A stretch of 64,000 nucleotides of DNA from Adlercreutzia sp. ZJ304 (lineage in GTDB: Bacteria > Actinomycetota > Coriobacteriia > Coriobacteriales > Eggerthellaceae), in the NCBI RefSeq assembly GCF_011039075.1, contig NZ_JAAKEG010000004.1:1-64000 (forward strand). The letters run 5' to 3'. A model generated the notes under the pieces. It had not been told where the DNA came from and did not search any database. It saw only the letters and a program-made list of their open reading frames with translations. Of this stretch, positions 24,186 to 30,383 are shown in pieces (position 1 is the first letter of the stretch; every line of letters begins with the position of its first letter). The position numbers and the translations under genes are program-made.

Positions 24186-24271
24186 TGGTGCGGGCGAAAG
24201 GACTTGAACCTTCACGGGGATTACCCACCAGAACCTAAATCTGGCGCGTCTGCCAATTCCGCCACGCCCGC
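24186..24271 (-). tRNA. tRNA-Leu (anticodon TAG)
   Basis: The class II cloverleaf reads on the minus strand. Acceptor GCGGGCG pairs with CGCCCGC, the D arm has TGGCGGAATTGGCAGACGC, the anticodon stem CCAGA/TCTGG holds the loop TTTAGGT with anticodon TAG, and there is a long variable arm and a T arm with GGTTCAAGTCC. Discriminator A and an encoded CCA. 86 bases. Confidence 0.95.
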
Positions 24272-24366: not shown

Positions 24367-25479
24367 GTGCAGATAACAGTAAATTCACAAAAAGACAATA
24401 AAGTATCTGTTAGTGCTACCGTAGAGGCCAAAACAGTAGATTCGTATATTGCAAAGACTTACAAAGATTTTGCAAGGCGTTATAACTTCCCCGGATTTCG
24501 TAAGGGTAAAGCGCCTCGTCCGGTTGTTGATAATGCGCTTGGTCGTGAAGCGGTAATGGCTACCGCCACCGAAAATCTAATAAATGATACGTATCCGCAA
24601 ATAATAGAAGAAGAAAAACTTTATCCTGCCGGTCAGCCCGATTTCGGAAAATCTGACGAAATGATAGTGCAAGGTAGCGATTTTACGTTCGATTTCACTT
24701 TGCCTGTGCGCCCCGAGATAGAACTTACGTCTTACGACGCTTTAGAGATAGAGCTTCCGCAAAGTGGTGCCAGCGAAGCTGAGATAGAAGAGCAGATGAA
24801 GCAGCTGCTAGCACATTATCAACAAGAAGAAGCTACTGAACAGTGGGCTAAAGAAACAATGGGCTTCGAAAGCCTAAACGATATGAAGAAGCAAGTTGCT
24901 CAGTCTATTGAAGATCAGAAAGAGGCAATGCTGCCGCGCCTTAAAGAAAATGCGTGCGTGCTTAAACTGATTGAGCGCGTGGATGCAGACGTTCCGGAAG
25001 GTATGGCAGAGCAGAAAGAATCGCAACTTCTGCAAGATTTCTTCACGCAACTGCAGCGCTCTGGTGCAAGTTTTGATTCCTACCTTATGCAGCAAGGTAT
25101 AGATTCTGACCAATTTAAGGAAGATGTTAAGCGTCAAGCGGAAGACGAAGTTAAGCGCGATATGGCTTTGGATGCTTGGGCGCGTCATGCTGGAATAGAA
25201 GCCACCGATGAAGATGTAAGTCATGAGTTTGAAGTAGCGGCAGGTGAAGGCGCGAAAGACCTTGAAAAAGAATGGCGAGACAGTGGTCGTTTATATCTGA
25301 TTCGCGAAGAACTTGTTCGTTCTAAAGCTATGGAAAACATAATGGATGGCGCTAAGGTAGTTGAGGTTGACTTTGCTAAGCGCGCACAAGAAGCCGAAGC
25401 TGCCAAGAAGGAATCTGAAAAATCAGATGAAAGTGCCAATGCCGAAGCGCAAACCACAGATGAAGAGAGCGCAGAATAG
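24367..25479 (+). CDS. tig: Trigger factor lacking the PPIase domain
   Basis: Trigger factor is the ribosome-bound chaperone at the exit tunnel. The N-terminal ribosome-binding domain is present with the signature NFPGFRKGKAPRPVV (about 40-54). In ordinary trigger factors, about 100 residues of FKBP-type PPIase follow. Here the linker EIEEQMKQLLAHYQQEEA at about 139-156 passes directly into the C-terminal chaperone domain (MGFESLNDMKKQVAQSIEDQ). The product is 370 residues against a usual 420-450, and the frame is intact, so this is a domain loss and not a frameshift. An acidic tail rich in Glu, Ala and Ser ends the protein. The start is GTG with GAAAGGGA 6 bases upstream. It precedes clpP and clpX, the classic tig-clpP-clpX order. 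Confidence 0.93.
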   Translation: MQITVNSQKDNKVSVSATVEAKTVDSYIAKTYKDFARRYNFPGFRKGKAPRPVVDNALGREAVMATATENLINDTYPQIIEEEKLYPAGQPDFGKSDEMIVQGSDFTFDFTLPVRPEIELTSYDALEIELPQSGASEAEIEEQMKQLLAHYQQEEATEQWAKETMGFESLNDMKKQVAQSIEDQKEAMLPRLKENACVLKLIERVDADVPEGMAEQKESQLLQDFFTQLQRSGASFDSYLMQQGIDSDQFKEDVKRQAEDEVKRDMALDAWARHAGIEATDEDVSHEFEVAAGEGAKDLEKEWRDSGRLYLIREELVRSKAMENIMDGAKVVEVDFAKRAQEAEAAKKESEKSDESANAEAQTTDEESAE

Positions 25480-25578: not shown

Positions 25579-26187
25579 ATGGCTATTGAGAGAGTAAATA
25601 ATGCGCTAATTCCGTATGTTATCGAGCAGTCGCCTCGCGGAGAGCGCAGCTACGATATCTACTCAAGATTATTGAATGATCGTATCATCTTTTTGGGTGA
25701 GCAGATTGACGATCATGTTGCAAATTCAGTTGTAGCGCAAATGCTACATCTGGAAAGCGTTGATCCTGATAAGGATATTAGTCTGTACATCAATTCTCCG
25801 GGTGGCAGCGTTACCGCCGGACTAGGTATTTTAGATACGATGAATTTCATTAAGTGTGACGTATCTACTATATGTATTGGCGAGTGTGCATCTATGGCGG
25901 CTGTATTATTGTCGTCCGGCACAAAAGGTAAGCGCTTCTGTCTGCCGAATTCCATGGTTTTAATCCATCAACCTTTAGGCGGCGCACAGGGTCAGCAGAC
26001 TGAAATTGCAATTGTGGCTGATTTCATGTTGAAAACGCGTAAGCGCTTGAATAAGATTCTGTCTGAAAATACCGGTCAGGATATGGAAACCATACAAAAA
26101 GATACCGAGCGCGATAATTACATGACTGCAGAACAGGCTAAGGATTATGGTCTTGTTGACGAAATTATTTTCCATCACGGTCAATAA
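25579..26187 (+). CDS. clpP: ATP-dependent Clp protease proteolytic subunit
   Basis: ClpP forms the barrel-shaped serine protease used by ClpX and ClpC. The 202-residue protein has the catalytic Ser in [14 protein letters not shown] (about 104), His in [13 protein letters not shown] (about 130) and Asp in [12 protein letters not shown] (about 178), plus the [10 protein letters not shown] oxyanion loop. It begins [14 protein letters not shown], with the short propeptide usual in the group. No frame defects. A strong terminator follows, so clpX may have its own promoter or rely on read-through. Confidence 0.97.
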
Positions 26188-26295: not shown

Positions 26296-27702
26296 ATGTC
26301 TGGTAAGAATTACAAGGGTGACTACAACAACGGCAATCCAATGTACTGCGCTTTTTGCGGCAAGGAAGCAAGTGAAGTGCGGTCAATGATAAGCGCTCCA
26401 AATGGGATATGTATATGTGATGAGTGTATTGGGGTTTGTGCAGATGCCATGATGGCTGACATTGGGCTATCGGCGCGGCACTGGGGTGCTGATGTGGATG
26501 ATGCTGCTGTGCGTGGTGCTCATGCTGAGCAGGGGGTACGCATTGAGGTTGGCGAAGATGGTATCTATGAAGAAGGCGCAGAGCCAACTTTGAGTCCGGC
26601 GGAGCTTTTAGGAGACTTGCCTACGCCGCACGAGATACATGCGCGTTTGTCTGAGCATGTGGTGGGTCAAGAGGCAGCTAAGCGGGCACTTTCTGTTGCT
26701 GTCTACAATCATTATAAGCGCATCACCATGGATTTAGAATCCGATGCTGATGATGTTGAAATAGCTAAGAGCAACATAATGCTTTTAGGGCCTACTGGTT
26801 CTGGAAAAACGCTTCTTGCCCAAACGCTGGCTCGCACGTTGAAGGTGCCGTTTGCCATAGCCGATGCCACTACGCTAACTGAAGCGGGGTATGTTGGCGA
26901 AGATGTTGAAAACATATTGCTGAAACTTATAACAGCAGCAGATTTTGATATTCCACGCGCCGAAATAGGCATTATCTATATTGACGAGATAGACAAAATA
27001 GCCCGTAAAGCTGAAAACCTGTCTATTACGCGCGATGTTTCTGGTGAAGGTGTGCAGCAAGCGCTTCTAAAAATTATGGAGGGTTGCGATGCTAGCGTGC
27101 CGCCGCAGGGAGGACGCAAGCATCCTCAGCAAGAACTTATCCCTATCAACACCGACAATATTTTGTTCATATTAGGTGGTGCTTTTGTCGGTTTGTCTGA
27201 CATAGTTGGACAGCGCGTGGGCAAAAGCGGTCTTGGCTTTGCCTCTGAAGTGCCGCAGTCAAAAAAGCAAGCAGAAGCTGAACTTTTGGCACAGGTGCTT
27301 CCCGAAGATCTCAATAAATATGGAATGATTCCTGAATTTGTCGGACGCATACCGGTTATAACCTCTTTAGATGAACTTACAGAAGAAGATTTAGTACGCG
27401 TTCTTACTGAACCGAAAAATGCTTTAGTGAAGCAATATGGACGTATGTTTGAATACGAGGATTCGAAGCTTACTATAGAGCCTGATGCTTTGGAGGCAAT
27501 AGCAAAAGAAGCGGTAGAGCACGGCACTGGCGCTCGTGGATTGCGCAGCATATGTGAGAGAGTGCTAAACGATGTAATGTATGATCTTCCCGAAGTGGAT
27601 GGCAAAACGCGCGTCAATGTGAAGAAAAGCGACATTGTGGGCGATACGTTCCCCCGTATAGAAAAAGTTGGGGAATTGAAAATAGACGACGAATTGGACT
27701 AG
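26296..27702 (+). CDS. clpX: ATP-dependent Clp protease ATPase ClpX
   Basis: ClpX unfolds tagged substrates and passes them to ClpP. The zinc-binding domain at the N-terminus has the four cysteines in YCAFCGKEA and [10 protein letters not shown]. The AAA+ core has Walker A GPTGSGKT (about 166-173), Walker [12 protein letters not shown], the GYVGED pore loop and the RKHPQQE segment. 468 residues is longer than the usual 410-430, because of a spacer at about 55-105 between zinc finger and ATPase ([13 protein letters not shown] onward). The ATG follows GAGGAAG. valS starts 11 bases on. Confidence 0.95.
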
Positions 27703-27713
27703 GAGTATTAAGC

Positions 27714-30383
27714 ATGTCGGACGCTGGACTTGCATCTAAAGAGGGCTTTTCAGAGCGTGAAAGACCCATTTTCGAAGCGTGGCGCGATGCGGGATATTTT
27801 TTGCGTAGTGCCGGTTTCGGCGAAATGGCTAACCAGAGCTATACGATAGTAATTCCGCCACCAAATGTTACCGGTGTGCTACATATGGGTCATGCCTTAA
27901 ACGACACTATTCAAGATGCGTGTATTCGACGTGCGCGTATGCAAGGAATGCAGACCCGGTGGATTCTTGGTACCGACCATGCCGGCATTGCTACGCAGAC
28001 TAAAGTAGATAAACACTTAGCTGAACAGGGTATTAATCGCCGCGAAATAGGTCGTGAAGCATTCATTGAGGCTTGCCAAGAATGGCGCTTAGAATACGGT
28101 ACCACTATTGTGAATCAGATAGCCTCTATGGGTTGCAGCTGCGATTATGAGCATGAGCAATTTACAATGAGCCCTGAATTTAGCCGTGCGGTTCGCAAGC
28201 TTTTTGTTGATTGGTACAACGATGGCATTATTTATCGCGGCAAACGTATAGTGAATTGGTGTCCTAGTTGCACGACCGCTATTGCCGATGATGAGGCTGA
28301 ATATGAAGACGAGCATGGCAGTCTTTGGTATTTGCGCTATCCACTAAGCGAGCCTGTTGGCGATATTGAGTATCTTGTGGTGGCTACTACGCGTCCCGAA
28401 ACTATGCTGGGAGATACAGGCGTTGCTGTTAATCCGAAAGACGAGCGCTATAAAGATTTGATTGGAAAGACGGTTGACCTTCCCATAGTTGGTCGCAAAA
28501 TTCCCATTTTTGCCGATTTTTATGTAGATAGCAGTTTTGGTACTGGTGCTGTGAAGACCACCCCTGCGCATGATCCGAATGACTTTGCGATGGGTGAGCG
28601 TGCAGGGCTTGAGCGCATTAATATTTTTGACGAAACAGCGCATGTTGTTGAAGGCTTTGGAAAGTTTAGCGGTATGGATCGCGACGAAGCGCGTGCCGCT
28701 GTTGTGGATGAGTTTGAGCAGTTGGGTTTACTCGACCATATAGAAGAACATGACCACTCTGTTATGCATTGTTATAGATGTCACAATAAGTTGGAGCCTT
28801 GGCTTTCCGAACAATGGTTTGTGGCGGTGGATAAACTGAAAGCTCCGGCTGCGAAAGCGGTTGAAAGTGGTCAAATTCAATTCCACCCCGCACGCTGGTC
28901 GCAGGTTTATCTTGATTGGCTCGAAAATTTGAAGGATTGGTGCATTTCTAGGCAATTGTGGTGGGGGCATCGCATTCCGATGTTTTATTGCGACAAGTGC
29001 GGTTGGAAAGCTGCAAGTGTCGATGATATAGAGGTGTGTCCCGAATGTGGTGCGCCTGTTCGCCAAGATGAAGATGTGCTTGATACGTGGTTTTCGTCGC
29101 AGCTATGGCCATTTGCCACGCAGGGCTGGGGAGATATGGGCAACGATTCTCCAGAGCTTCAAAAGTATTACCCAACGCAGGTTCTTTCTACTGCTAGAGA
29201 CATAATGGGTCTGTGGGTGGCTCGTATGGTAATGGCTTCGGAATACTGTACAGGTAAGATTCCGTTCCAGCATGTAATTATTCATCCTACAGTTATGGGT
29301 GCCGATGGCAAACCTATGAGTAAATCGCGTGGAAACGGCGTAGATCCTGTAGAGTTAATGGCAGACTATGGTGCCGATGGCATGCGATTTGGTCTGCTTA
29401 CACAAGTAACGGGTGCGCAGGCTATGCGCTTCGATCGCCAAAAAATTGAAGGCGCTAGAAACTTTGCTAATAAGGTTCGCAATGCTGCTAGGTTTGTCTT
29501 GATGCATATGGATGGTTTTGTGCCCGGCGAACCGGAACCAGTAAAAGCTGCTGATAAGTGGATACTTTCTAGGTTGGCGCATTTGGCAAAAGCGGTTGAT
29601 GATGCCTATGACGCTTTCGAATTTGGCGAGATGACACGTGAGCTATATGGCTTTTTCTGGAATGAATTTTGCGATTGGTATATAGAGTTTTCAAAGAGCC
29701 GATTGACAGACCAATCCGATCCGGCGGATAAGTTGGCGTGTCAGCGGAATTTGGTGTTTGTGCTAGAACAGGCTATAAGGCTGCTTCATCCGGTTATGCC
29801 GTTTATTACTGAAGAAATATACAAGGAAATTCCGCACGCTTCTGCTGCACCTATGCTTATTGTGTCGGAATGGTCCGATGCTTCTTTGTTAGCAAAGTAT
29901 GCAGATGCGGATGCCGAGCGGGCTGTGCAATTGGTTTGTAATATTGTTGGTGCCGTCCGATCTGCGCGTGCTCGTTACGGCTTGTCACCTAAAACAGAGC
30001 TTAAGGTGTATGTGAAAGCTGCCGATGAAGATTGTGCGCTTATAGAAGGTCAGCGTATGTCGATAGAGTCGCTTGGACACTGCGAAGAACTTGTAGTGGG
30101 TTCTGACGTTGTCAAGCCTAGTGAATCTTCAGCTACTCTATCTTCCGATTTGGAGATTTATACAGTACTTACTGGGCATGTAGATTTCGATGCCGAATGC
30201 AAACGCGTTAAAAAAGAATTGGATAAAGCCGAAGCCGATGCAGAGAAGTTGCGTCGCAAGCTTTCAAATGAAGGCTTTTTGAAGAAGGCTGCTCCAGAAA
30301 TAATAGAGAAAGATCGTAATCATCTTAATGAGTTGGAAGATGTTATCGATAAGTTAAATGCACAGTTAAAGGACATTGCTTGA
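27714..30383 (+). CDS. valS: Valyl-tRNA synthetase
   Basis: Class I synthetase of 889 residues charging tRNA-Val. The HIGH motif appears as PPPNVTGVLHMGHALN (about 44-60), the editing domain (CP1) covers about 170-330 with TTPAHDPNDF, KMSKS appears as PMSKSRGNGVDP (about 528), and a C-terminal coiled coil (about 825-885, KRVKKELDKAEADAEKLRRK) is the tRNA-binding arm. AGGAG lies before the ATG and clpX is 11 bases upstream, so clpX-valS is probably an operon. Confidence 0.96.
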   Translation: MSDAGLASKEGFSERERPIFEAWRDAGYFLRSAGFGEMANQSYTIVIPPPNVTGVLHMGHALNDTIQDACIRRARMQGMQTRWILGTDHAGIATQTKVDKHLAEQGINRREIGREAFIEACQEWRLEYGTTIVNQIASMGCSCDYEHEQFTMSPEFSRAVRKLFVDWYNDGIIYRGKRIVNWCPSCTTAIADDEAEYEDEHGSLWYLRYPLSEPVGDIEYLVVATTRPETMLGDTGVAVNPKDERYKDLIGKTVDLPIVGRKIPIFADFYVDSSFGTGAVKTTPAHDPNDFAMGERAGLERINIFDETAHVVEGFGKFSGMDRDEARAAVVDEFEQLGLLDHIEEHDHSVMHCYRCHNKLEPWLSEQWFVAVDKLKAPAAKAVESGQIQFHPARWSQVYLDWLENLKDWCISRQLWWGHRIPMFYCDKCGWKAASVDDIEVCPECGAPVRQDEDVLDTWFSSQLWPFATQGWGDMGNDSPELQKYYPTQVLSTARDIMGLWVARMVMASEYCTGKIPFQHVIIHPTVMGADGKPMSKSRGNGVDPVELMADYGADGMRFGLLTQVTGAQAMRFDRQKIEGARNFANKVRNAARFVLMHMDGFVPGEPEPVKAADKWILSRLAHLAKAVDDAYDAFEFGEMTRELYGFFWNEFCDWYIEFSKSRLTDQSDPADKLACQRNLVFVLEQAIRLLHPVMPFITEEIYKEIPHASAAPMLIVSEWSDASLLAKYADADAERAVQLVCNIVGAVRSARARYGLSPKTELKVYVKAADEDCALIEGQRMSIESLGHCEELVVGSDVVKPSESSATLSSDLEIYTVLTGHVDFDAECKRVKKELDKAEADAEKLRRKLSNEGFLKKAAPEIIEKDRNHLNELEDVIDKLNAQLKDIA

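Follow-up and report, generated by a model that had tools for sequence, protein, structure and literature searches.

A trigger factor without its PPIase head in Adlercreutzia sp. ZJ304, and apparent recurrent loss of the head in Coriobacteriia

The window analysed here, a stretch of 64,000 nucleotides from Adlercreutzia sp. ZJ304, carries a trigger factor gene, tig1, whose product passes from the ribosome-binding domain into the C-terminal chaperone domain without the FKBP-type PPIase head. The protein is probably a genuine syntenic (clade A) orthologue of the bacterial trigger factor, cut to ribosome-binding domain and cradle; on the preferred reading it is a working, ribosome-docking trigger factor that shed a probably inactive head. 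The gene, its domains and the conserved block downstream of it are as follows.

24367..25479, plus strand: headless trigger factor tig1 (clade A), GTG start, 370 aa, with Trigger_N, Trigger_C and TIGR00115 matches
24370..24807, plus strand: Trigger_N, the ribosome-binding domain, motif NFPGFRKGKAPRP at residues 40-52 (Pfam; motif conservation)
24805..24864, plus strand: junction LLAHYQQEEATEQWAKETMG, 20 residues, in place of the PPIase head (spacing; alignments)
24871..25344, plus strand: Trigger_C, the C-terminal chaperone domain (Pfam)
25579..26187, plus strand: clpP, next gene 3' of tig1, order kept in relatives
26296..27702, plus strand: clpX, conserved order
27714..30383, plus strand: valS, valyl-tRNA synthetase, closing the block, conserved order

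The open reading frame runs uninterrupted from the GTG codon through all 370 residues. Both Pfam matches of the product, Trigger_N over residues 2-147 (129 bits) and Trigger_C over residues 169-326 (78.7 bits), lie far above cut-off, and the NCBIfam model TIGR00115 is passed with 190 bits (cut-off 180). The protein has the GFRxGxxP domain of bacterial trigger factors (PGFRKGKAPRP is present), and residues G43, F44, R45, G47, P50 and R51 of this motif are invariant across 48 orthologues, the headless ones included. It also has the C-terminal chaperone domain, the tig-clpP-clpX locus and a clade A placement; the FKBP-type PPIase head, expected between Trigger_N and Trigger_C, is missing. A Pfam scan of the whole protein gave no FKBP_C match. 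Taken alone this says little, as headed members of the family also fall below or close to the FKBP_C cut-off, and the profile misses many genuine diverged heads. FKBP_C was for this reason dropped as a criterion, and the presence of a head was judged by how far the MGFE motif lies from the end of Trigger_N, a distance of 20 residues in tig1 vs 106-123 in 41 headed orthologues. The AlphaFold2 model (mean pLDDT 93.8, pTM 0.83) is confident across the junction and matches E. coli trigger factor over its full length; in the PDB it has significant matches to trigger factors and Mycoplasma MPN555 and none to an FKBP, in a structure search in which the model of a second trigger factor of the same genome (TF2, below), used as a control, does match FKBPs. 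On alignment, spacing and structure prediction alike, the clean loss of the PPIase domain in an intact frame, as put forward in the original prediction, is upheld, and so is the classic tig-clpP-clpX position, which extends to valS in an order conserved across Eggerthellaceae. A tRNA-Leu gene lies shortly upstream of tig1 on the minus strand (24186-24271).

The further claim that tig1 stands alone as candidate for the cell's trigger factor was wrong. Profile searches of the window genome located Trigger_N at three loci and matched Trigger_C five times, the trigger factors themselves accounting for three of the Trigger_C matches, and the search for a second full-length tig or a stand-alone FKBP returned two of each. 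A further tig with a PPIase domain, named in the original prediction as its refutation, is therefore present.

C25, 48990-50294: TF2, 435 aa, GFRKGKAPRA motif and a middle domain of head length
C28, L003:625-1935: TF3, 436 aa, head present, ribosome motif degenerate (IRPEQGKSVPQLV)
C29, L005:1204-1722: second stand-alone SlyD-like FKBP, with a His/Cys-rich tail

The first SlyD-like FKBP gene starts about 40 bases downstream of TF2, and the pair (L002:1462-3336, on C25) is kept in genus g1, to which the window genome belongs, and in other Eggerthellaceae genera. TF3 adjoins PhoU-like and phosphate-transporter-like genes, and its clade is widespread in Coriobacteriales. Two cyclophilins are also present. 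A detached tig1 head was not evident in the window genome, where the FKBP_C scan gave the two SlyD-like FKBPs and the TF3 head. In a tree built on the ribosome-binding and C-terminal domains, with the head columns omitted, the Coriobacteriales sequences are separate from the nine trigger factors included from other bacteria and form three groups: A, the tig-clpP gene (64/89, weak for a single group), B, TF2 (98/98), and C, TF3 (100/100), which on this sequence evidence are taken as three old paralogue clades. Of 140 Eggerthellaceae genomes, 20, spread over 10 genera, carry a TF2-type gene, and the ribosome-motif pattern is matched by all 11 TF2 sequences examined; in general, more than one motif-bearing trigger factor is rare, being found in 23 of 15,575 genomes surveyed (PMC11559001).

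The head loss reaches beyond the window genome, so that the observation was right where the uniqueness claim was not, and the survey of related Coriobacteriia shows the same loss recurring, with headless tig-clpP genes known in at least four genera. The matches listed for the 140 Eggerthellaceae genomes include a headless tig1 in three genomes of g1 and two of genus g9 (G010 and G106), and those listed for 333 Coriobacteriia genomes with a completeness of 90% or more brought in G211 and G037, both confirmed by alignment; 7 and 13 genomes, respectively, gave no match at the thresholds of the two surveys, so weak or split headless cases were possibly missed. One genome of the order (G031, 93% complete) has only two tandem TF-like genes with weak Trigger_N (L120, on C187) and no strong tig1 match. 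The headless junctions measure 20, 23, 25 and 29 residues and are unlike in sequence. A single origin for all headless tig1 genes was rejected, as the tig1 tree requires four changes and places G211 and G037 among headed relatives. Statistically, a single loss common to g1 and g9 is tenable (p-AU 0.54 for tig1, 0.28 for ClpP+ClpX+ValS), because the trees do not settle the branching of g1, g9 and the neighbouring genus g57; the number of losses, as read from these trees, is therefore three or four. The open-access literature searched yielded no account of a head lost naturally in Coriobacteriia.

The idea that tig1 offers a natural test of head function stands in so far as the loss is real, but the window genome is confounded by TF2 and SlyD and by the lack of most FKBP pocket residues in heads of the order, and g9 serves better. 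Each of the two g9 genomes, G010 (a single contig, 99% complete) and G106 (84% complete), has just one trigger factor, which is headless (loci L135, L134 and L243), and a genome scan gave no FKBP_C match in either, although diverged FKBPs could escape it; one cyclophilin match is retained. Having only this headless trigger factor and no FKBP domain that the scan could detect, g9 is the cleanest natural knock-out of the head, cleaner than the window genome. In G211, too, the only trigger factor is headless, here alongside one FKBP.

The condition of the head before its deletion can be judged from headed relatives, using the E. coli positions key for isomerase activity (PMC9527764). In all 31 headed Coriobacteriales tig1 sequences F/Y at 168, F177, I195 and Y221 (E. 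coli numbering) are lacking, position 195 being P or S instead of I, in an alignment whose placement of residues at about 194-197 and of the loop close to 221 is uncertain. By comparison, six of eight controls (Bacillota, Alphaproteobacteria, Fusobacterium) retain F/Y168, F177, I195 and Y221, and the two Actinomycetes controls do not, so the decay of head and pocket may be general in Actinomycetota. The trigger factors of Tsukamurella and Microbacterium (L249:462-1871, L252:459-1865) are likewise without the FKBP pocket aromatics. Because key FKBP pocket residues are missing, the Coriobacteriales head was probably catalytically weak before it was deleted, with decay preceding loss. Two counterpoints bear on this account, namely that 25 of the 31 sequences retain the pocket-floor aromatic F198, and that CrTIG1 keeps roughly 1% of EcTF activity despite several changes in its pocket (PMC9527764); the head can thus only be called probably inactive. 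The TF2 heads lack the same pocket residues, for which reason TF2 may not supply isomerase activity, and the SlyD-like proteins and cyclophilins would be likelier cytosolic isomerase sources in the window genome.

From its domain content, motif conservation, purifying selection (below) and the dispensability of the E. coli head, tig1 would most likely dock at the ribosomal tunnel exit through its GFRKGKAPR loop, use its arms to shield nascent chains and be devoid of isomerase activity itself. A functional headless trigger factor is plausible because the head of the E. coli protein is dispensable for the main chaperone function (PMC8185961; PMC9287376). With key pocket residues observed to be lost in Coriobacteriales heads, deletion of the head may have been cheap, and TF2 with its head and adjoining SlyD-like FKBP, plus the motif-less TF3, all persisting in this genus, could cover whatever need for a headed trigger factor or isomerase remains.

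A rival account is subfunctionalisation, in which tig1 became specialised as ribosomal holdase, TF2-SlyD took over the chains that need a head, and the presence of TF2 caused the head to be lost. Both tig1 and TF2 retain the ribosome motif, and TF2 with its adjoining SlyD-like gene is found in all three g1 species and in g57, whose tig1 has kept its head, so TF2 is older than the loss. Against it, no headless tig1 is among the matches listed for the 17 other TF2-bearing Eggerthellaceae genomes, g9 and G211 have headless tig1 as their single trigger factor, and the paralogues could compete for one ribosomal site instead of dividing labour. Since compensation by TF2 or an FKBP fails to cover g9, redundancy is not a necessary condition for head loss, and we regard subfunctionalisation in the window genus as possible though rather doubtful.

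That tig1 is instead decaying after the loss of its head, with TF2 turning into the real trigger factor, is very improbable. TF2 is complete and motif-bearing and scores higher on TIGR00115 (227 bits vs 190), but the tig1 frame is intact in three species, its ribosome motif invariant and its synteny conserved. Headless tig1 occurs in all three genomes of g1, namely the window genome, the isolate record of Adlercreutzia murintestinalis (G001, L036) and a separate MAG (G002, L037), with identical junction architecture and 72-76% identity between the window protein and the other two. Between G001 and G002, the two closer species, dN is 0.072 and dS 1.03, giving a dN/dS of about 0.07, and tig1 of this genus is by this measure under purifying selection; in comparisons with the window gene dS is saturated. 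The status of pseudogene is ruled out by this ratio and by the conserved motif. The sharing of a headless tig1 under purifying selection by three species of the genus also disposes of a sequencing error that hides a longer frame: the draft status of the window genome (33 contigs) is all that speaks for a deletion by sequencing or assembly error, a practically negligible prospect given that the junction recurs in the isolate and the independent MAG and that g9, G211 and G037 have differing headless junctions. The headless tig1 is not the product of chance, frameshift or misassembly.

The preferred reading, a working trigger factor that shed a probably inactive head, bears on the purpose of the conserved PPIase head, which has been hard to pin down because E. 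coli is little affected when the head is deleted. That the head was lost repeatedly in an order where the pocket is already gone suggests that the isomerase role can go first and the head be dispensed with later, and a genus with a headed spare, as in the window, set against g9 without a detectable FKBP domain makes the question testable by comparison. Two coexisting motif-bearing trigger factors bear in turn on the proposed rule of one ribosome-binding trigger factor per cell. A broader account, plausible but put forward tentatively, is that Coriobacteriales heads decay and are then repeatedly deleted, that g9 lives with one headless trigger factor and no FKBP, and that the window genus, running a headed and a headless trigger factor that both carry the ribosome motif, would stand as a stable exception to the dosage constraint that has been proposed.

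Among known systems, the canonical trigger factor (TIGR00115; E. coli TF, PDB 1W26/2VRH) shares with tig1 the GFRxGxxP domain, the cradle, the tig-clpP-clpX position and the TIGR00115 pass. It differs in having the FKBP-type PPIase head and in its length, 432 aa vs 370 aa. The same domain content as in tig1 is found in the engineered head-deleted E. coli trigger factor (Kramer et al. 2004; reviewed in PMC8185961), which reportedly keeps the main chaperone function; unlike it, the tig1 protein is natural, fixed in its genus and under selection, with a headed paralogue in the same cell. Mycoplasma MPN555 (PDB 1ZXJ), a weak structural match to tig1, has a TF-like chaperone fold without FKBP head but is only 192 residues long, and, as far as tested, neither synteny nor sequence makes it a tig orthologue. 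The chloroplast TIG1/TIG2 pair (PMC9527764, PMC11731035) offers a weakened pocket in TIG1 and a domain-truncated trigger factor alongside a full one, but there, unlike in tig1, TIG1 keeps its head and TIG2 is a ribosome-binding domain alone. In Myxococcus and other bacteria with trigger factor duplicates that lack the RBS (PMC11559001), several trigger factors per genome occur and one copy has lost a domain, a pattern that TF3 fits; by contrast, the reduced tig1 keeps its ribosome motif and drops the head, and two motif-bearing trigger factors coexist.
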